Positions 12,651-46,792 of a stretch of DNA of 64,000 nucleotides are shown here, in pieces (position 1 is the first letter of the stretch; each line of letters opens with the position of its first letter). The DNA comes from Spirochaetaceae bacterium. Lineage in GTDB: Bacteria > Spirochaetota > Spirochaetia > DSM-27196 > SKKC01. The notes under the pieces are model-generated. The model saw only the letters and a program-made list of their open reading frames with translations. It did not search any database and was not told the origin of the DNA. The position numbers and the translations under genes are program-made. The stretch is taken from positions 1 through 64,000 of the forward strand of contig RECN01000077.1 of the NCBI GenBank assembly GCA_007694005.1, read 5' to 3'.

Positions 12651-13520
12651 TCAGTCCGCCCCGGGGTCCTGCCCTGCCCCGACCCTGTCGGGCGGACGCG
12701 CGCGAAACTGCGTCGGTGTCATGCCGACCTGTGCAGTGAAGCGGCGCTCAAAGCTCTGATAGCTGCGATACCCGACAGACTTTGCGATGGCAGAAACCCG
12801 CAGGCTCGTGTCCGCGAGCAGCCGCTGCGCGTGGGTAATCCGTGTCTCGGTAATGAACTGCGAAACACTGACACCGGTTCGCTCCTGAAACAGCCGTGAG
12901 AAGTACGATCGCTCAAGTCCTATGTAGCGCGCAACTGCCGCTGCCCCTCCGAGGATATGATATTCGGCCTCAATGTACGCCACCGCTTCCTCGACATAGT
13001 CGATGTATCCGGTCGGTGTGCCGGCTTTGCCGGAGCGATCGCCCACACACCCGAGTGCGAGTACTCCAAGCGCCATGCTGTACAGCTGTTCGAGCTGACT
13101 CGGGCTCTGCAGTGAGGTCAGGATGCGCCGCAGAAGCAGCGCCATACGTACCGGGAATGCGGGACGAAATACGCTTGTCTCACGCGGTACTCCGTAGAGC
13201 TCTCCGAGGAGTTCATCATCTACCCCGGAAAAACCGAGCCAGACATACTCCCAGGGGTGTTTCATGTCTGCCTGATAGATGTGCTCCTGCCCGGGCCGGA
13301 GCAGGAAGCACTCGTGACTCGAGATTTTGTAACTATGTCCATTGGTACGCAGGGTACCCTTGCCCGATAGAACAAGATGGAGCAGATAGTGGTCGCGCCG
13401 TATGGCAGCCGACTTTCCAGGCGGGCACTTCTCGGTACCCGCGTGAAGCACCTCCGCTATCGCGCGATGCGATACACTGCTGTTGCGGTACGCGTATTCG
13501 GGTAAACTGCCAGAGCGCAT
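12651..13520 (-). CDS. AraC-family transcriptional regulator
   Basis: Regulator of 289 residues. The N-terminal half is a cupin-like sugar-sensing domain (HLVLSGKGTL, then LLRPGQEHIYQ). The C-terminal 100 residues hold two helix-turn-helix motifs, the first around AAVARYIGLERSYFSRLFQE and the second around VSAIAKSVGYRSYQSFERRF. Its position next to GH4 and GH130 suggests that it activates these genes in response to a sugar. The upstream permease gene ends 21 bases before its start on the same strand. Confidence 0.9.
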   Translation of the reverse strand: MRSGSLPEYAYRNSSVSHRAIAEVLHAGTEKCPPGKSAAIRRDHYLLHLVLSGKGTLRTNGHSYKISSHECFLLRPGQEHIYQADMKHPWEYVWLGFSGVDDELLGELYGVPRETSVFRPAFPVRMALLLRRILTSLQSPSQLEQLYSMALGVLALGCVGDRSGKAGTPTGYIDYVEEAVAYIEAEYHILGGAAAVARYIGLERSYFSRLFQERTGVSVSQFITETRITHAQRLLADTSLRVSAIAKSVGYRSYQSFERRFTAQVGMTPTQFRARPPDRVGAGQDPGAD

Positions 13521-32460: not shown

Positions 32461-32562
32461 GCCTGGATATCCTGATACTACCCGGACCGTAACAGCAACC
32501 CAACCACAGGTAAAAGATACGGAATACGTGCACGGCTGTCTACCACAGTTAGAAGGCAGTAA

Positions 32563-33363
32563 CTACACGAAGATCAGGGTTTCGGCCGCCACAAACAATC
32601 CCGCACCAACCGCAACCACGGCAAAAATCCTGCGGAGGACTACCGGTGAGAGGTACTGCTTGAGCCATGCACCACCGACCATACCGGCCCAGCTTCCCGC
32701 AGCGAACACGGCGGTGAGCGCGACCGGAGAACCGTAGGCGGCGGCGAAGTTTGCGATAAAACCGCTCACCGCGGTGAGCGCGATTGCGACGAGCGACGTC
32801 GCGAGAGCACGATCGATGCTGACACCAGCGACAAAAATCAGAGCGGGAGCGAGCAGAAAACCGCCTCCGACGCCGAAAAATCCCGAGAGCACACCGGTCA
32901 TAAGCCCGGCAGCACCGAGCTTCAGCGCGCACGTGATGCCCCCGGCGGGCCTGCCCTGTTCGTCAAGAGGACAGGTGAACCTCCCGGTCGGAACCTCGGG
33001 AGCGGGCCTCTCGCGTCTCGCCATACGCGCACCCACAAAAATCATAAGCGCTGCGAAGAGCACCAGGGAAATATCCTCGGGTATGCGGGTACCAAGCTGC
33101 GCACCGAAGGGGGCTGCGATAATTCCTCCGAGCCCGAGGATGGCTCCTGCTTTCCAGAGGACGTTACCGCTTCTGGCCTGAATAACCGCTCCGAAAAGCG
33201 ATGTTAATCCGACAACCGCGAGCGAAATGGCTACGGCGGCACGGAGCTCCATACCGAGACCGTAGATGAGCAGTGGGACGGCGAGTATCGATCCTCCACC
33301 ACCGGTCAGGCCTAGAGAAAGGCCGACCAGCAGTCCGAAGACGACAGCGAGAGTCATGTCCAT
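32563..33363 (-). CDS. TauE/SafE-family sulfite/organosulfonate exporter
   Basis: Membrane protein of 266 residues with eight hydrophobic segments in two related halves. The repeated glycine motifs are LTGGGGSILAVPLL at the start and FFGVGGGFLLAPAL in the second half, typical of DUF81/TauE. Two cysteines lie in the cytoplasmic middle loop (TCPLDE and TCALK). It follows the CstB-like gene after 12 bases, as TauE does in staphylococcal cst operons, so it likely exports sulfite or thiosulfate formed during persulfide oxidation. Confidence 0.9.
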   Translation of the reverse strand: MDMTLAVVFGLLVGLSLGLTGGGGSILAVPLLIYGLGMELRAAVAISLAVVGLTSLFGAVIQARSGNVLWKAGAILGLGGIIAAPFGAQLGTRIPEDISLVLFAALMIFVGARMARRERPAPEVPTGRFTCPLDEQGRPAGGITCALKLGAAGLMTGVLSGFFGVGGGFLLAPALIFVAGVSIDRALATSLVAIALTAVSGFIANFAAAYGSPVALTAVFAAGSWAGMVGGAWLKQYLSPVVLRRIFAVVAVGAGLFVAAETLIFV

Positions 33364-33375
33364 ATATGGCCCCGT

Positions 33376-34791
33376 TTATGATGCTTTTGGATAACTTGCT
33401 TCGCAGCTGCCATCCATAAGAACGGCATTATATCCGAGAGCTTTGAGGTACGAAACCGCAACAGTCGCGCGGCGCCCCGACTGACAATGAACGTAGTAGC
33501 GTGTCGACCGGTCAAGCGTATCGAGAGCCGCAGTCAGTCTCGTATAGGGCTGACAGACCGAACCCGGATAGCATCGTTCGTTGTGCTCGCTGGTGTTCCG
33601 GACATCCAGGATTACCTCACCAGCCTTCACGGTGCCAGGATCAAAGGTCTCGCACTGGAAGTGCTCAAGAGTCTCAAGCTCGACACCCGAGGATCGCAGG
33701 TCCTCGAAAGTGATATACCCGTCGACGTGATCGTACCCGATGCGATACAACAGGCGGGCGGCTTCATCGGCATCGTCGGCGGAATCAAGTACGAGCAGAA
33801 CGTGTTCGTCATCGGCGATGGTAGAACCCGCGGCGTTCACAATGGTGCCGTCGCCGAGTCCGCCGAAAATCGAACCGGGAAGATGCGCCGTAATGAAGGC
33901 CTGACGGTCGCTGCGCGCGTCGATGACGCGGACTTTTGGAGCCTGTGCCTCGCTCGTGAACTCTGATGCTGTCATTTCGCGAGGCTTTGGGGCACCACCG
34001 GTAACCGTGATACCGTCACGGTTGACGGTTTTCATTCGCGCGAAGTACATGGGAGGCTCGGGCTGTCCCGACAGTATCACCGAGACGAACTCTTCGGCAT
34101 TCGTCTGCGCAAGACTGAGCGCTCCGTTGAAGCGGCGCTCGTACCCGAGGGTAGATGATGGCAGGGCGCCGAGCGCTTTCCCGCAGGCACTCCCGGCTCC
34201 GTGGCCAGGCAGAATCTGCGTGTACTCCGGAAGGTCGAGCCGCTCCGCAAGCGATTTCTGTAAACGACGAGCCGACGGCTCCATGTTTCCGACGATCCCG
34301 GCGGCGGATTCAAGCAGATCAGGTCGTCCGACATCCCCGACGAACACGAAATCTCCGGTGGCGATGGCAACCGCTTCGGTCGCGCCACCTCCATGATCGG
34401 TAATGAGATAGCTGAGGTGTTCCGGGGTATGCCCTGGTGTGTGCACAGCCTTGATTTCGATGTTCCCGATATGAATGCTGTCACCATCCATGAGCAGGGT
34501 AATGTTACTCCTGCCGCCGGTCCATGCATGCGTCCAGTCCGGCCCACCCTCTCCGGGCAGGTACACCTGTACCGACGGATCGGCCGCGAACTCCTGTGTA
34601 CCGCTCACAAAATCGGCGTGTATATGTGTTTCTGCTGCGGCGATGATCGTGAGGTCGTGTTTTGCCGCGAGCGCGTGATACCGGTCTATGTCACGCTCCG
34701 GGTCGATGACGATAGCCTCGCCACTCTGCTGACATCCGATCAGATATGCGGCCTGCGCCAGTGCATCATCATAGACTTGTCGTAAAAACAT
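33376..34791 (-). CDS. MBL-fold persulfide dioxygenase fused to two rhodanese domains (CstB-like)
   Basis: About 471 residues. The N-terminal metallo-beta-lactamase domain has THIHADF at 55-61, HTPGHTPEHLSY and GDFVFVGDVGRPDL, which hold the His/His/Asp set of ETHE1/CstB-type non-heme iron dioxygenases. A first rhodanese-like domain (about 290-370) lacks an active Cys. The C-terminal rhodanese has the persulfide loop HCQSGRRA. Such proteins oxidise low-molecular-weight persulfide and transfer sulfur, giving thiosulfate or sulfite. The start at ATG 34791 has GGGAG upstream; codons upstream to 34869 lie in the promoter region. Controlled by the palindromic promoter region just upstream. Confidence 0.92.
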   Translation of the reverse strand: MFLRQVYDDALAQAAYLIGCQQSGEAIVIDPERDIDRYHALAAKHDLTIIAAAETHIHADFVSGTQEFAADPSVQVYLPGEGGPDWTHAWTGGRSNITLLMDGDSIHIGNIEIKAVHTPGHTPEHLSYLITDHGGGATEAVAIATGDFVFVGDVGRPDLLESAAGIVGNMEPSARRLQKSLAERLDLPEYTQILPGHGAGSACGKALGALPSSTLGYERRFNGALSLAQTNAEEFVSVILSGQPEPPMYFARMKTVNRDGITVTGGAPKPREMTASEFTSEAQAPKVRVIDARSDRQAFITAHLPGSIFGGLGDGTIVNAAGSTIADDEHVLLVLDSADDADEAARLLYRIGYDHVDGYITFEDLRSSGVELETLEHFQCETFDPGTVKAGEVILDVRNTSEHNERCYPGSVCQPYTRLTAALDTLDRSTRYYVHCQSGRRATVAVSYLKALGYNAVLMDGSCEASYPKAS

Positions 34792-34824
34792 ACATGTACT
34801 CCCGTATTCGTAGAATGTATGAAC

Positions 34825-34853
34825 AATATATTTGACATTTCCAATATAGTCAA
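34825..34853 (-). promoter_or_regulatory. sigma-70 promoter for the CstB-like/TauE genes
   Basis: On the minus strand TTGACT (34853-34848), a 17-base spacer and TATATT (34830-34825), about 35 bases before the CstB-like start. It overlaps the opposite promoter almost completely, so the two polymerases compete for the same DNA. Confidence 0.7.
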
Positions 34854-34856
34854 ATA
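34829..34856. promoter_or_regulatory. palindromic operator between sulfide genes
   Basis: Perfect 8-base arms TATTTGAC (34829-34836) and GTCAAATA (34849-34856) are separated by 12 bases in a marked A/T-rich island. Each arm contains the -35 hexamer of one of two opposed promoters. A regulator bound here would control both directions. The closest known analogues are operators of CstR/BigR-type persulfide sensors, but no such regulator gene is in the window. Confidence 0.7.
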
Positions 34857-34860
34857 CTAT
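34832..34860 (+). promoter_or_regulatory. sigma-70 promoter for the YeeE/YedE pair
   Basis: TTGACA (34832-34837), a 17-base spacer and TACTAT (34855-34860), a near-consensus promoter about 50 bases before the first YeeE-like gene. Confidence 0.75.
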
Positions 34861-34909
34861 TTTGATCACGTATGATAGTCTCTATACAGTTATCTGAAAG
34901 GAGTTCTCT

Positions 34910-35479
34910 ATGATTGATGCAATAACAGGTCCCTGGCCGTGGTGGATTTCCGGCCCGCTGCTCGGGCTCATGGTACCGCTGCTACTGCTGCTCGCAAACA
35001 AACAGTTTGGTGTCTCGTCCTCTCTGCAGCACATATGCGCAGCCGTACTTCCGGTGCGAAAGGCAAAGTACTTCAACTACGACTGGAAAGCCTCAATGTG
35101 GAGTATTGTCCTGGTTGCCGGTGTCGTGGTGGGGGCGGCGATCGCAGTACTGTTTCTCAACGGAGACGCCGCACCCGAAGTCAGCAGCTCAGCCCGGGAG
35201 CTTTTCGCATCCTGGGGACTTTCGTCACCGGAGGCGCTGCAACCTGCGGAGATTTTCGGTACATCAGCGCTCAGCTCCCCTGCAGCCCTCGTGATTCTGA
35301 TCGGTGGTGGCTTTCTCGTCGGTTTCGGGGCGCGATACGCGAACGGTTGCACGTCGGGGCACGCGATTATGGGGCTCTCACTCTTGAGTGTTGGTTCGCT
35401 CGTCGCCGTTATCGGATTTTTTATCGGTGGTCTGGCAATGGCCCACCTGATTCTTCCCTACATTGTGTCACTGCTATAA
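34910..35479 (+). CDS. YeeE/YedE-family sulfur transporter, subunit A (PmpA-like)
   Basis: Membrane protein of 189 residues with about five hydrophobic segments. It has the family motif NGCTSGH near residue 145, whose Cys is proposed to pass sulfur ions such as thiosulfate through the membrane, followed by GIMGLSLLS-like AIMGLSLLSVGSL and a C-terminal span. Half-size YeeE proteins work in pairs, and its partner follows directly. Strong AAAGGAG ribosome site. Likely role: moving sulfide, sulfane sulfur or thiosulfate alongside the CstB-like enzyme. Confidence 0.9.
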   Translation: MIDAITGPWPWWISGPLLGLMVPLLLLLANKQFGVSSSLQHICAAVLPVRKAKYFNYDWKASMWSIVLVAGVVVGAAIAVLFLNGDAAPEVSSSARELFASWGLSSPEALQPAEIFGTSALSSPAALVILIGGGFLVGFGARYANGCTSGHAIMGLSLLSVGSLVAVIGFFIGGLAMAHLILPYIVSLL

Positions 35480-35489
35480 GGGGTTTGCC

Positions 35490-35903
35490 ATGAAACTGAT
35501 CAAGTTTTTTCTGTTTGGTGTCTATTTTGGAGTCGTACTCGTCAAGGCGGAAGTCGTCAGCTGGTTCCGCATACAGGAGATGTTCTACTTTCAGTCGGTG
35601 CACATGTACGGGATCATAGGAAGCGCAGTGGTCATAGGGGCGCTCTCGGTCTTCCTGATCCGCACGTTCGGGATACGGTCGGTGGAAGGCGAGGAAATCA
35701 AACTTGCCGCGAAGCCGTTCAATAAAGTCGGCAACCTCGCAGGTGGCATCGTATTCGGACTCGGTTGGGCACTTGTCGGTGCGTGTCCTGGTCCCCTGTA
35801 CGCGCTCATAGGCGCCGGTTACTGGTCGGTCCTGATTGCGCTCGCGGGCGCCTTTGCGGGAGTTGTCACCTACGGGTACGCGAAACCCCATCTGCCACAT
35901 TAG
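35490..35903 (+). CDS. YeeE/YedE-family sulfur transporter, subunit B (DUF6691/PmpB-like)
   Basis: Membrane protein of 137 residues with four hydrophobic segments. The motif GWALVGACPGPLYALIG carries the conserved Cys matching the Cys of the A subunit. The ATG at 35490 has AAGGGG upstream; an open frame from 35463 is an extension across the previous stop. The gap to subunit A is 10 bases. The two half proteins together equal one full-length YeeE. Confidence 0.9.
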   Translation: MKLIKFFLFGVYFGVVLVKAEVVSWFRIQEMFYFQSVHMYGIIGSAVVIGALSVFLIRTFGIRSVEGEEIKLAAKPFNKVGNLAGGIVFGLGWALVGACPGPLYALIGAGYWSVLIALAGAFAGVVTYGYAKPHLPH

Positions 35904-35929
35904 CCCCTGGGCCTGGGGTACACAGGCGA

Positions 35930-35958
35930 GGCCTCTCGCTTCTCAGTGAGAGGCCTTT
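35930..35958. terminator. bidirectional hairpin terminator
   Basis: Perfect arms GGCCTCTC (35930-35937) and GAGAGGCC (35948-35955) are followed by TTT on the plus strand. It ends the YeeE pair and lies over the last codons of the convergent CDP-alcohol phosphatidyltransferase gene, so both ends share one stem. Confidence 0.6.
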
Positions 35959-38206: not shown

Positions 38207-38323
38207 GCTGTAACCTCAATACATGCCAGGCGGAGGCTTCCGACAGCAACAAGACACACTGCTCCCGATACCCGCGTCTTCCTTTAACAAGAGTATCGGC
38301 GGCTCGTCCCCTCAAGTGAAGAA

Positions 38324-38352
38324 ATCGTACCACAGGGTATGTGGCGTGTCAA
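38324..38352 (-). promoter_or_regulatory. sigma-70 promoter for the M23 peptidase
   Basis: On the minus strand TTGACA (38352-38347), a 17-base spacer, and TACGAT (38329-38324). A small hairpin (TGTGGC/GCCACA, 38340-38361) overlaps the -35 and may be an operator or the tail of the MsrA transcript. Confidence 0.6.
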
Positions 38353-38375
38353 ACTGCCACAACCAAATGACTTAG

Positions 38376-38897
38376 CTATAACATCCCCAGTTTCTGCAAC
38401 TTCGGCTGAATTACGACACGACAATACCCCGCGCCTGGATTCCGGTCAAAATACCTGTCGTGATACGCTTCGGCAGCATAAAATTCAGCAGACGGTTCAA
38501 TCCGCGTTACAACCGGCTTCCCGAGCAACTTCTGCACCGTATCCACCATACGCTCGGCGATGAGTTTCTGCTCGTCGGAGTGATAGAAGATAATCGACCG
38601 GTACTGTGATCCGACGTCAGCACCCTGTCGATCCACGGTCGTCGGATCGTGTGCCTTGAAGAATGTCTCAAGGATGCGGTCGTACGACACTATCGACGGA
38701 TCGTAGTTCACCTGCACGACCTCTGCGTGCCCGGTCTGTCCTGTACATACGTCCTCGTAGCTGGGATTTGCAACCGAGCCGCCACAATAGCCCGACTGCA
38801 CCGACTCTACCCCGTCGATGCGGCGAAACACCGCTTCTATGCACCAGAAGCACCCGCCACCGAGCGTTGCGGTCTGGATTTTTGAGCTTTCTGCCAT
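38376..38897 (-). CDS. msrA: peptide methionine sulfoxide reductase A
   Basis: MsrA of 173 residues, reducing methionine-S-sulfoxide in proteins. The catalytic motif GCFWC has its nucleophile at Cys16, followed by GVESVQSGYCGG, then VNYDPSIVSYD and DVGSQYRSIIFY. A resolving Cys is in GYCRVV near the C-terminus. The start at ATG 38897 has GAGGT upstream; the 49 codons further up are read-through of the Hsp33 leader region. Divergent from Hsp33, another oxidative-stress gene. Confidence 0.95.
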   Translation of the reverse strand: MAESSKIQTATLGGGCFWCIEAVFRRIDGVESVQSGYCGGSVANPSYEDVCTGQTGHAEVVQVNYDPSIVSYDRILETFFKAHDPTTVDRQGADVGSQYRSIIFYHSDEQKLIAERMVDTVQKLLGKPVVTRIEPSAEFYAAEAYHDRYFDRNPGAGYCRVVIQPKLQKLGML

Positions 38898-38992
38898 AGG
38901 TAACCTCTGCGCAAAAATACTACATGAAATCAGCGTTCGACCAGTCATACAGCTTGACAATGAAGCGGCAGTCGAACAGCGTACTAATCGTA

Positions 38993-39931
38993 ATGAATTT
39001 GCAACCCGAACAGGACACTGAGCACGCCCGCCATCTCGACACACTTGCCTCCGACGGCATCGACATTTTTCTTCTCGCCCGCGGTAATCTACGCGGAGCG
39101 GTCATTCACGGCACTCACATGCTGAATGCAATGCGCCGTAATCATCAGCTTGGCATAATGGAAAGTCTGATTCTCGGTCACGGTTACCTCGCGACTGCTC
39201 TCGTCGGGTCACAGCTCAAGGAACACGGACGAGTAATCCTGTCCATAGACTGTTCAGGCCCGGTACAGGGAATGAACGTTGAAGCAACTGCACGGGGTGA
39301 AGTACGCGGGTACCTCAAGAACTCGACAATACTCATTGAGGAAGAACTCGAGAGTTTCGATACAGGACCGTTTATAGGGGTCGGTATTCTCTCGTTAACG
39401 CGTCACCTGGAACGACAGAAACAACCCTTTACCGGGCAGGTACTGGTAGAGTACGGCTCGATTGCCAGGGATCTCGCAAACTACTACGTGCAGTCCGAAC
39501 AGACGCCTACGGCCTTCAATCTGAGCGTACAGTTCGATGCCGCCGGACGAATCAGCGGCGCCGGGGGGCTGTTTGTGCAGGCGATACCTGGTGCACACGA
39601 TGAAGAAAAGGAACGCGCTCAGGAACTGGTTGAGGAGCTTCCGAGTCTGGGACGCTTGTTTGCCGATAGGCATACCGGGGCGGATGTAGTGCATCGGCAG
39701 TTTGCAGCGCTCGAACCGGAGATTGTCGGCACCCGGGAAGCCAGCTTTTTCTGCGCCTGTTCAAAGGAGCGATTTGCCCGCTTTATAGCAGGCATGTCCG
39801 ATCAGGAACTCGATGATCTCGAAGCGAACGGTCCCTTCCCTGTCACAACTGTGTGCCACAACTGCAACTCGACCTATGAGTTTACAAAGGCGGAAGTGCA
39901 CGAGTTAGCGGCGCGGCACAGAAAGCCATAG
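38993..39931 (+). CDS. hslO: Hsp33 redox-regulated chaperone
   Basis: About 312 residues. It opens with the Hsp33 segment DIFLLARGNLRGAVIHG, then GHGYLATAL, SGPVQGMNVEA, and RGYL. The C-terminal redox switch has four cysteines as FFCACS and CHNC, which bind zinc when reduced and form disulfides under oxidative stress to activate holdase function. I place the start at ATG 38993 because family members begin about 24 residues before DIFLL; ATGs at 38924 and 38960 are also in frame and none has a clear ribosome site. Cytoplasmic. Confidence 0.88.
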   Translation: MNLQPEQDTEHARHLDTLASDGIDIFLLARGNLRGAVIHGTHMLNAMRRNHQLGIMESLILGHGYLATALVGSQLKEHGRVILSIDCSGPVQGMNVEATARGEVRGYLKNSTILIEEELESFDTGPFIGVGILSLTRHLERQKQPFTGQVLVEYGSIARDLANYYVQSEQTPTAFNLSVQFDAAGRISGAGGLFVQAIPGAHDEEKERAQELVEELPSLGRLFADRHTGADVVHRQFAALEPEIVGTREASFFCACSKERFARFIAGMSDQELDDLEANGPFPVTTVCHNCNSTYEFTKAEVHELAARHRKP

Positions 39932-41299: not shown

Positions 41300-44200
41300 T
41301 TACGATACTCCATGCGATGTGTTTCGGGCAAATACCCCGGCGAGGGCTTGAGCCGTGTATCCATGACCGCGGGCAATCATAGCCGGTGCGCCTTCAGATA
41401 CGATCGTACCCCCCTCCTCCCCCGCCTCGGGTCCCAGATCGATGACATGGTCAGATTCGGCGATCAGATCGAGATTATGTTCGACAACCAGTACCGAGTT
41501 ACCTGCGTCTACAAGCCGCAAAAGGACCCGGGTCAACTTCCCGACGTCCGCCATATGAAGACCGATTGTCGGCTCATCCAGCACGTAGAGGGTATGCCCG
41601 GCCTTTACTCCTCCGGTCTTCGACAGCTCGGTTACGAGCTTCACCCGCTGGGCTTCACCACCCGACAGGGTCGGACTCTGCTGCCCGAGTTTCAGGTAGC
41701 CAAGACCGACCTCATCCATGAGTTCAAGGGCATATGATATCTTCGGATGCGCGGAGAAAAAGCCGACAGCATCCTCAACGCTCATATCGAGGACATCGGA
41801 TACCGACGCCCCCTTGTACCGGACGTTTCGTGTCTCCTCGTCGAAGCGCGCACCACCGCACTGCTCGCAGGGCATGCGCACATCCGGAAGAAAATTCATC
41901 TCTATCTTCACCATACCCTGTCCCCCGCAGTTTTCGCAGCGGCCCCCTGAGGTGTTGAAGGAGAACCGACTTGCTGTATACCCGTGTATCCGCGCTTCCG
42001 GGGTCTGGGCATACAGTTTCCGGATCTCGTCCCAGATACCGACGTAGGTGGCTGGGCAGCTGCGCGGTGTCTTTCCTATGGGTGTCTGGTCGACCTCAAG
42101 TACGCGATCGATAACTTCGTGTCCGCTCAGGCCGGCACACCCGATCAGCACAGGTCCGGTTGTCCTGCTTTTCCTGCGCGAAGCCCTCGTTCTGCCCGCC
42201 GCGATCGTATCGCGCAGGGACGGGAACACGACCCCGCGTGCGAGTGAGCTCTTACCGCTGCCAGAAACGCCGGTCAGGCACACAAGTCTTCCGAGCGGAA
42301 TCTGCACATCGATTTCTTTCAGGTTGTTCCGGTATGCGCCACTGATCGTCAGCACGTTGGCAGCAGAAATCGGGGGCTCATCCCGATCTTCGCGCGGAAT
42401 CGTGGGGTGCTCGGGAGGACAGGCGAGTATCTGTGCGGTGACCGACTCAGTCACTTTCAGCAGCTCATCCACCGAACCTTCTCCGAGTATCATCCCGCCC
42501 CGCGTTCCTCCGCCCGGTCCAAGGTCGATGATTCTGTCCGCGCTGCGTATCGTCGCCTCATCGTGCTCTACAACGACAACGGTGTTTCCCTTGTCCCGCA
42601 GCGACATGAGCGTATCGAGCAGCATGCGGTTATCGCGGGTGTGAAGACCGATTGTCGGTTCGTCAAGCACGTAACAGACGCCCCGGAGGTTGCTTCCAAG
42701 CTGCGCGGCGAGTCTGATCCGCTGTGCCTCTCCTCCGGAAAGCGTCGGGGCCGCCCGGTCGAGCCCGAGATAACCAAGTCCTACATGCTCCAGAAAACCG
42801 AGACGAACCCTGAGTTCACTGACAATATCCCGGGCAACCTGTTCTTCCCTGTCACTCAGGCTGATTCCGTCCATCCACACCGAGAGCGCCTGAACTGAGT
42901 CCGCAGCGACCGATGCGATGTCACGATCGCGAAAGCGCACGGCCCTGGCCACCTCATTCAGGCGGCTTCCGTCGCAATCGGGGCAGACGGTCAACTCACC
43001 GTCGAACACCCGTGAGGAAAGGTCGGGATGCTCGTCCTCATCGGAGTAATTCTCGAACCCGGTTCCATTACAGGTGGAACACATACCGTGACGGCTGTTG
43101 AACGAAAACAGGCGCGGATCGAGATCCGGAAAACTCCGTGAGCACGACGGACAGCTGCGATTCGTCGAGTACATGCGTTCGTCGGTGTCGGTCACGACGC
43201 GTACCTGCCCGTCGCCTTCCGACAGAGCCAGGGTCAGCAGCGTCCGCAGGGCCTGCTCGTTGTCGGTAGTCAGTTCAAGAGAACCGACCGGAAGATCTAT
43301 GGAATGTTCCTGGTAGCGTGAAAGGCGCGGCCAGCCGTCCGTCGGCAGGTACTCACCGTCCACGCGTAACTCTGCATACCCGTGCTTTCGGGCCCACTCC
43401 GCCAGGTCGGTATAGTATCCCTTGCGCGCTACAACGAGTGGAGCGAGGACCGTGACGGATTGATCACGATACCGGGAGAAAACATCCGCTACGATCGCGT
43501 CGGCGGTCTGCGGCTGAATAGCGATATCGCAGTCAGGGCAGTACTGTACGCCAAGCTTCAGAAAGAGGAGCCGCAGGAAGTGAAACAGCTCGGTCGTCGT
43601 CGCTACCGTACTCTTCCATCCTCCACGGCTCATCCTCTGTTCGATCGCCACCGAAGGCGGCAGACCGTGAACGGCGTCTACATCGGGTCGCGACGCAGGC
43701 TGCACAAACTGTCTCGCATACGCATTCAGGGACTCGAGATAGCGCCGCTGGCCTTCCGCGAACAGAATATCGAACGCGAGTGTGCTCTTTCCGCTTCCTG
43801 ATACACCCGTCAGTACCGTGAGCTGATTCTGCGGCACCGACACCGAAATCTCCCGGAGATTGTGCTCACGGGCGTGTACAACCTCGATGGGTCGGTCAAA
43901 ACCCGGGGATGCCTCTGCTGCGAAGTCGTGTTCCACGGCGTCAGTCCACATCGATCCGCTCGCAGCGGCATCGTCTGATTGCAGATAGGCCTCCAGTGCA
44001 GCGGCGGTGTATCCCGTACCCGAGGCAATCAGCTCGGACGGGCTGCCGTTCACAACGACTCGACCTCCCTCGCTGCCTCCATCCGGCCCCATATCGATGA
44101 CGTAGTCGCACGCGGCGACAACATCAAGATTGTGCTCAATGACGAGCACACTGTTCCCCGCCTCCACGAGTGTCCTGAGTGCAGACAGCAAGGTGGCTAT

Positions 44201-46792
44201 ATCAGTTGCGTGAAGCCCCGTGGTCGGCTCGTCGAACAGGAAAAGCGTACCGGTCGTGGCTGCTCCGCTTCCAAGAGCTCCGACAAGATGGTAGGCCAGT
44301 TTCAGGCGCTGCGACTCGCCGCCGCTGAGCGTCGGGAGCGGTTGGCCGAGCGCTACATAGTCAAGGCCTACAGCCACGAGCGGCTGCAGGACGCGGAGCA
44401 CTTTCGGGTCGTCAGCAAAGTAGCGGGCCGCATCGGCGACCGTGAGCTCGAGGACCTCCGCTATGCTCCTGTGGCCGAGATCGACGGCGTCTGCTGAGGG
44501 AGCCATGCGGAGCTCAAGAATCTCAGACCGGTACCGCGCTCCTTCGCAGTCCGGACATCGAAGGTAGATATCGCTCAGGAACTGCATCTCAATGTGCTCA
44601 AAGCCGGTCCCACCACAGGTCGGGCAGCGTCCGTTGCCGGAGTTGAAGCTGAAGGTTCCCGGCGTATACCCGCGCTTCTTCGCCTGGGGCAGCGCAGCAA
44701 AACGCTTGCGTATCTCGTCAAATGCGCCGACGTAGCTGGCAGGATTGCTGCGTGCGGTTTTTCCGATGGGCGACTGATCAACAAGCACGATATCATCGAG
44801 CAGCTCTGCTCCACTGATTGCCTCGTGCTCTCCCGGGGTTTCGGTCTGCTTTCCGAAGTGACGGAGCATGGCTCGGTAGAGGACGGTTTCGAGAAGCGTG
44901 CTCTTTCCGCTCCCGGAGACCCCTGTCAGGCACACAAAGCGATGCAGGGGAATATCGACGTCTACCGACTGGAGGTTGTGCGCAGTCGCACCGCGCACGC
45001 TGAGCACCTGCGAGGATGAGCCGGCGGCTGAGGACAGCGCCGGTCGGGGCGGTATGAGCAGGCTTCTGGCACTGGGGCTTCCACTCTCGAGCAGTCGTCG
45101 GGGCGAGCCCTCGAAGATGATCGTTCCACCGGCTGTTCCGGCACCGGGGCCCATTTCGATGACCCTGTCAGCCGCGAGAACGACCTGAGGATCGTGTTCC
45201 ACGACCAGCAGCGTATTTCCTGCGTCCCGCAGGCGCCTGAGTATACCGACAAGCCTCCCGACGTCCCTGCTGTGCAGGCCGATGCTGGGCTCATCGAGCA
45301 CGAAAAGCGTATTCGTGAGCTGCGTTCCGAGCGCCGTCGTCAGGTTGATGCGCTGTACTTCGCCGCCGCTGAGTGTCCGCGACTGTCGGTCGAGTGTCAG
45401 GTACCCGACGCCGACCTCGACAAGGTACCCCAGACGACTCTGTATTTCGGACAGAACGAGTTCGGCTGCAGGATCTGCGGCGGTGACAAGCTCATCTGCA
45501 TAGGACCCGAAAAAGGCGTGCACGTCCCAGATGGGCATCTGCATGACATCGTGTATGGATCTACCGCGTATCTTCCACTGCAGGGCTTGCGGCTTCAGCC
45601 GGGCTCCATGACACGCGGGGCACAGATCATAAGACCGATACCGTGAGAGCAGTACGCGGATATGCATCTTGTAACTGCGCGATTCAAGCCAGGCGAAAAA
45701 GCGCCGCACCCCGTACCAGACACCGTCATCCCATTCGCCTTCGCCTTCGAGAACCCAACGGCGATCCTGGTCCGAAAGATCACGCCATGGGACATCAGGG
45801 TCGACCCCACGAAGACCGGCGAATCGCAGGAGATCATCCCTGCACTCCAGGTAGCTTTTGCTTTCCCAGACGCGAACGGCACCCTCGCGCAGACTTTTTG
45901 ACTCATCGGGAATGACCAGACCGTAGTCGATGCCCATGGTACGGCCGAACCCACGACAGGTGTCGCAGGCACCGACGGGAGAATTGAACGAGAACAGCTG
46001 AGAACCGGCGTCCTGGTAATGAATATCGCAGTCGGGGCAATGCAGATCGCGGGAAAAACGAAACTCAGGACCGTCGAGAATACGAACCGTGCAGGTGTTA
46101 CTGCCGTGAAGAAATGCCGCTTCGATCGCTTCGATCCACCGGCTGCGCTCATCCCGCGCAAGCAACAGACGGTCTCCGACGACGACAATCTCCGATTCGG
46201 ACTCCGCGTCGATACGGTGATATCCGGTATCCGCAAGAAGTCCCCGCATTTCCTCGACGCTTCGACCGGGAGGAACAGGGACCGTAAACAGAACCATCGC
46301 CCGTGCGCCATCAACGATGGCTCCGGAATCAAGATGATCAAGCAGCACCTCGAACACGCTATCCGGTGTTTCCCGTCGAACAGGGCGTCCACAGCCTGCA
46401 CAGTGAAGGATCGAACACTTCGCCCAGAGCAGCTTGAAGTGATCGTTCAGTTCGGTCATAGTACCTACAGTGGATCGAGAGGTCCGGACCGGATTGGTCT
46501 GGTCGACTGCAATCGCAGGGGGGATACCGTCGATTGACGAAACCTTCGGTTTATCCATACGATCAAGAAACTGCCTGGTATAGGCAGAAAACGTTTCCAC
46601 GTAACGCCGTTGCCCTTCTGCGTAAATCGTATCAAAGGCAAGCGTTGATTTACCTGAACCGCTTACACCGGTTATTACGGTAAACGTTCCTAACGGAATA
46701 TCAACATCGACACTACGAAGGTTGTTTCCATACGCACCACGAACCTGAATGACGCGAGGTGCCTCTGCCTGTTTGATGTTATGCTTGTTCAT
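41300..46792 (-). CDS. uvrA: tandem double-length UvrA excinuclease subunit
   Basis: A single 1830-residue open frame equal to two UvrA proteins in a row; a normal UvrA is about 940. Copy 1 spans about 1-935 and copy 2 about 968-1825. Each copy has two ABC domains. Walker A motifs (GVSGSGKS) are at 42-49 and 624-631 in copy 1, then near 996 and again near residue 1500. Signatures are LSGGEVQR (474-481), LSGGESQR (822-829), and two LSGGEAQR in copy 2. Zinc-finger cysteines (CPDC...CDTC and CPTC...CPDC types) are kept in both. It recognises bulky DNA lesions for nucleotide excision repair; the fusion likely acts as an intramolecular dimer, as in the long chlamydial UvrA. Confidence 0.95.

Follow-up and report, generated by a model that had tools for sequence, protein, structure and literature searches.

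Interlocked divergent promoters predicted between two operons of a spirochaete sulfur locus

Pseudo-symmetric bidirectional promoters, at which RNA polymerases compete with each other, have been established experimentally in Escherichia coli (PMC12825309, PMC10268837), where the class mostly shares the -10 element and the start sites are separated by 7-25 bp, usually about 18 bp (PMC10268837). The window analysed here, a stretch of 64,000 nucleotides from a Spirochaetaceae genome of 3.9 Mb (96% complete), contains a 36-bp block which resembles these prokaryotic promoters (PMC12825309, PMC10268837) in its pseudo-symmetric DNA and, by prediction, in two exclusive polymerase orientations and divergent transcripts. 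In contrast with the E. coli class, each -35 hexamer of the block stands beside the opposite -10 hexamer, and the predicted start sites are estimated to be about 48 bp apart. Judged by sequence, the block falls outside the strict bidirectional definition, which demands start sites 7-25 bp apart and reciprocally overlapping -10 elements, and inside the broad one of two opposed sigma-A-type promoters sharing DNA; because its -10 hexamers (34825-34830 and 34855-34860) do not overlap, it is filed here under overlapping divergent promoters rather than the strict class.

The surrounding genes recall the operons controlled by BigR (PMC5823870) and the Acinetobacter yeeE-yedE-pdo2 genes (PMC7315123), in which a persulfide dioxygenase is accompanied by YeeE/YedE or by a TauE exporter, and regulation at the promoter core may be a further shared feature (PMC5823870). 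The differences are that bigR resides inside the operon in Xylella and Agrobacterium, whereas a BigR-type gene was not found in the present genome, and that the rhodanese domain of the dioxygenase is C-terminal here, as in CstB. The locus is also akin to the CstR-controlled cst operon of Staphylococcus aureus in combining a CstB-like enzyme with TauE, and departs from it in that its only CsoR-family protein precedes a copper-ATPase gene.

Anatomy of the intergenic block

The block separates a dioxygenase-TauE operon from a YeeE-YeeE operon, and the features concerned are the following.

32563-33363, minus strand: TauE/SafE sulfite exporter family gene, by domain assignment
33376-34791, minus strand: persulfide dioxygenase, CstB-like (metallo-beta-lactamase plus C-terminal rhodanese), start codon at 34791
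34792-34824, minus strand: leader of the dioxygenase gene, including a ribosome-binding site; matches the sister genome at 32 of 33 bases
34825-34860, no strand: interlocked divergent sigma-A-type promoter block, 36 bp, kept in the sister genome
34825-34853, minus strand: predicted promoter toward the dioxygenase and TauE genes, TTGACT-17-TATATT, the same in the sister
34829-34856, no strand: inverted repeat TATTTGAC-N12-GTCAAATA, seven of its eight pairs being promoter-hexamer bases
34832-34860, plus strand: predicted promoter toward the YeeE genes, TTGACA-17-TACTAT, in the sister TTGACT-17-TATTAT
34861-34909, plus strand: leader of the YeeE genes, including a ribosome-binding site; matches the sister at 49 of 49 bases
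34910-35479, plus strand: YeeE/YedE-type Sulf_transp protein, first half
35463-35903, plus strand: YeeE/YedE-type Sulf_transp (DUF6691) protein, second half

The plus-strand promoter is made up of TTGACA (34832-34837), a 17-bp spacer and TACTAT (34855-34860), and the minus-strand promoter of TTGACT (34853-34848), likewise a 17-bp spacer and TATATT (34830-34825), so that a first-pass annotation, which had described two opposed promoters overlapping at 34825-34860, was exact in both. Each scores 10/12 against the E. coli consensus, which serves here to judge the strength of spirochaete promoters, and is suitably distant from its ribosome-binding site. When the 118-bp intergenic region was shuffled 20,000 times by dinucleotides, opposed 10/12 promoters that overlap arose in only 24 cases (0.12%), and the interlocked pair thus exceeds chance. 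A mechanical list of open reading frames puts the dioxygenase start at an upstream GTG (34869); since homologues open with the same MFLRQVYDD-type sequence, the start is assigned to 34791, and the block is therefore situated inside the true intergenic region, 33 bp from the start codon on the dioxygenase side and 49 bp on the YeeE side. A search of the vicinity against Rfam returned a sole match, a sub-threshold osmY inside the TauE gene and on its coding strand.

Elsewhere in the window, MsrA and Hsp33 (38376-39931), a pair linked to oxidative stress and situated not far from the sulfur genes, are encoded by divergent genes that are close or overlapping, and a UvrA-like protein of 1,830 residues (41300-46792, minus strand) resembles a double-length UvrA.

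The palindrome and the promoter layout among relatives

The palindrome reported by the first-pass annotation is perfect and lies precisely where it had been placed, with arms at 34829-34836 and 34849-34856 around a 12-bp spacer. In the arms, TA-T-TTGAC, the TA opens the opposing -10 hexamer when read on the other strand and TTGAC supplies five of the six -35 bases, which leaves 34831/34854 as the sole pair free of hexamer bases. Because each -35 hexamer is one base from the other promoter's -10, the block is pseudo-symmetric, and this arrangement produces nearly all of the palindrome. Arms of 8 bp with a gap of at most 20 bp were also found in 1,311 of 20,000 dinucleotide shuffles (6.6%), and for both reasons the palindrome is regarded mostly as the signature of two mirror-placed promoters; once these are given it adds almost nothing and speaks only weakly for an operator. 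A genome-wide search, which the annotation had suggested, was run and yielded one exact match in 3.9 Mb. When up to three mismatches were allowed, five sites were recovered versus 16 for a backwards control, which argues that the genome holds no second operator, and one additional relaxed site kept in both congeners was rejected because it falls in a coding frame. The palindrome had been offered as independent evidence of an operator, a use that its composition, its absence outside the genus and its single genomic copy do not support. Two familiar site types were also discarded: the half-site spacing is wrong for the Crp/FNR family, and an OxyR-like ATAG-N7-CTAT is broken in the sister genome and was treated as a chance occurrence. 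The case illustrates how the mirror placement of two promoters can create a conspicuous palindrome, and offers a test of this origin against an operator.

Two other genomes of the genus were compared, one of which (G001, the sister genome) was usable, while the assembly of the third member is devoid of the YeeE gene and the intergenic region. The sister dioxygenase is 96% identical to that of the window, and both promoters are retained at the same offset. Only 6 of the 118 intergenic bases differ, as against 139 of 548 four-fold sites (25%) in the three flanking genes. Four of the six changes (34837, 34838, 34841 and 34842) surround the palindrome centre within 12 bp, the others being at 34806 and 34857; the centre drifts at an approximately neutral rate, while the arms are fixed and so are the hexamers, apart from a terminal base of one -35 and a single base of one -10. 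Such strong constraint is not special to the promoter site, because the two leaders and the intergenic region 38207-38375 (97% identity) are also nearly identical; the regions 32461-32562 and 35904-35942 show 69-73%. In the sister, the palindrome becomes ATATTTGACTAT-N6-ATAGTCAAATAT with 12-bp arms, which were reached in 6 of 10,000 shuffles of that genome's own region. By sequence, the symmetry beyond what the promoters need amounts to one free pair in the window and at least four extra pairs in the sister. The extra symmetry of the sister is the best evidence that an operator may be present, and it could also represent a one-step template-switching correction of a quasi-palindrome.

The dioxygenase-TauE operon likewise diverges from the YeeE-YeeE operon in the better-assembled spirochaete loci that were mapped in the order; the named relatives are mostly metagenome-assembled genomes (MAGs) from soda-lake sediment, a habitat inferred from isolate names. 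Three other families contribute ten loci with a common 40-bp block of about 1.45 bits per column, against 0.26 and 0.38 in its flanks, which cannot be aligned. This block contains TTGYCW-17-TACTAT toward the dioxygenase and, in nine of the ten, a facing YeeE-ward promoter at a constant offset of 38 bases, made up of a TTTACT-like -35, 17 bp and a TATATT-like -10, the exception (L016) being without the YeeE-ward -10. In g2, a further genus in the family to which the window belongs, a dioxygenase-ward TTGTCA-17-TATATT or TATAGT occurs, whose -35 overlaps an opposite-strand TTGACA, and no good YeeE-ward -10 was scored. The TATTTGAC palindrome is confined to the window's genus among the relatives examined, and since offset and sequence differ in the other families, the layout is the conserved trait and the palindrome a genus-level one. 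By these alignments, the layout is broadly kept while sequence and geometry change. The annotated placement of interlocked divergent promoters between the dioxygenase-rhodanese/TauE pair and the YeeE pair is thereby borne out by strong constraint and by recurrence of the layout in other families; the significance lies in a divergent sulfur locus of soda-lake spirochaetes that keeps interlocked promoters through such change.

Candidate regulators and the readings weighed

A search for ArsR and CsoR/CstR genes, also suggested by the annotation, was productive in part: genes of both families exist, and none encodes a BigR- or CstR-like sensor. Searches with PF01022 and PF12840 disclosed three ArsR proteins, namely one with an SmtB-like zinc motif DxHx10HxxH (C26), one of arsenic type with an ELCVC motif (C114), and a Cys-rich one without the second Cys (C173), which is encoded between aroB and an FmdB-like gene. 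The BigR cysteine pair (Cys42/Cys108 in Xylella) occurs in none of the three in this 96%-complete genome. The sole CsoR, with a C...HxxxC pattern, is encoded directly upstream of the copper ATPase gene, and no CstR-type persulfide sensor was found near the operon. A regulator might belong to another family, such as MarR, TetR, Rrf2 or FisR, the genome search having covered ArsR and CsoR in an assembly 96% complete. Control by FisR would call for a sigma-54 promoter and an activator beside the operon; no activator was seen among the Pfam-scanned genes of the window, and the promoters match the sigma-70 consensus. The zinc-type ArsR was considered as the sensor, being the genome's best match to the ArsR proteins adjacent to such loci in other phyla, and was dismissed for its want of the CxxxC pair. 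As to the Cys-rich ArsR (L034, G000:C173, 1375-1728, minus strand), it has 117 aa with cysteines at KVCGHP, ELLCAIA and EPCVSELWVCV, and its FmdB-like neighbour is a zinc-ribbon gene.

The window was said to hold no regulator gene, which is incorrect: an AraC-family regulator is encoded at 12651-13520 (minus strand), 21 kb from the promoter block and with no sulfur link; it adjoins GH4 and GH130 glycosidase genes. Nor do the searches bear out the proposal that the sensor is either elsewhere or new: they brought up no sensor like BigR or CstR, and the block could just as well be a constitutive bidirectional promoter. The persulfide-sensor part of the annotation would follow solely by analogy with BigR and CstR. 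Among the mapped spirochaete loci, the only regulator gene detected nearby was one of the Crp family, about 2 kb off in one other genus (L126). It was rejected as the regulator because its neighbour is a ferredoxin gene and it did not recur near the other loci.

The 36-bp block is probably a compact bidirectional promoter at which one polymerase orientation excludes the other; its anatomy, constraint and recurrent layout are observed, and from them we infer promoter use, polymerase competition and coupled expression. RNA polymerase carrying the main sigma factor would bind the block in either orientation, not both at once, with rightward transcription reaching the YeeE pair and leftward transcription the persulfide dioxygenase-rhodanese and TauE genes. 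The likely effect would be to couple sulfane-sulfur transport to persulfide oxidation and sulfite export at one site. The promoter matches might instead be coincidences of a region that is 69% AT, with transcription starting elsewhere, for example at the plus-strand TAGTCA-18-TATGAT (34847-34876), which scores 9/12; this is highly improbable in view of two 10/12 promoters that are suitably placed to ribosome-binding sites, kept in the sister and arranged in a layout that recurs in other families.

What counts against the bidirectional promoter is its departure from the E. coli pattern of a shared -10 and closer start sites, and that the 12-bp arms of the sister exceed the hexamer requirement. 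The rival reading is a dimeric repressor on TATTTGAC-N12-GTCAAATA which would shut both operons until persulfide or another signal releases it. The rarity of those arms in shuffles, the fixed arms around a drifting centre, the ArsR or GntR/UTRA genes adjacent to YeeE/dioxygenase loci of other phyla, and the repression of such operons by BigR at the -10 region (PMC5823870) all favour a repressor. Its existence is nevertheless doubtful, given that seven of the eight palindrome pairs are promoter bases, that the genome has no second site and other genera lack the sequence, that no regulator beyond the one distant Crp-family gene accompanies the mapped spirochaete loci, and that the genome searches brought up nothing resembling BigR or CstR. 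A repressor on the symmetric arms is possible and would be compatible with the bidirectional promoter. There is only a slim chance that the mirror-symmetric block is bound in this genus by a sulfane-sulfur sensor from a family without a known link to persulfide, which would switch both operons together. At least one genome with this divergent locus yielded no known persulfide sensor in the ArsR and CsoR searches, and its regulation of the locus, if any, is a testable question.

Regulators beside similar loci in other phyla

Two kinds of local regulator, ArsR and GntR/UTRA, accompany similar loci in other phyla, and neither the C-x3-C type of ArsR nor the GntR/UTRA type was found beside the spirochaete loci. 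An invariant C-x3-C close to the C terminus, with no conserved counterpart of the first Cys of BigR, marks the ArsR proteins of L052, L058, L061, L063, L070, L072, L079, L083 and L102, hosted by Rhodothermia, Gemmatimonadota and Verrucomicrobia MAGs. These loci encode a CstB-like dioxygenase, and the ArsR gene is mostly beside the dioxygenase or YeeE genes. These proteins may constitute a separate sulfur-sensing ArsR group. In L063, L079 and L083, near-palindromes such as TATCGAGATATCGCGATA and TATATTCCTACATAGCAATATA are located about 30 bp upstream of ArsR and are possible autoregulatory operators.

In ten loci of other phyla (L053, L055, L058, L059, L062, L070, L078, L080, L086 and L106), mostly from Rhodothermales, Balneolales and Bacteroidetes MAGs, a 16-bp palindrome close to ACTTGTNATNACAAGT precedes the first YeeE gene by 33-240 bp; the matches totalled 11, and a reversed control gave 0. 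This palindrome resembles operators of the HutC/GntR type. A GntR/UTRA regulator adjoins the L055 and L078 loci, and a homologue is encoded farther off in L106.
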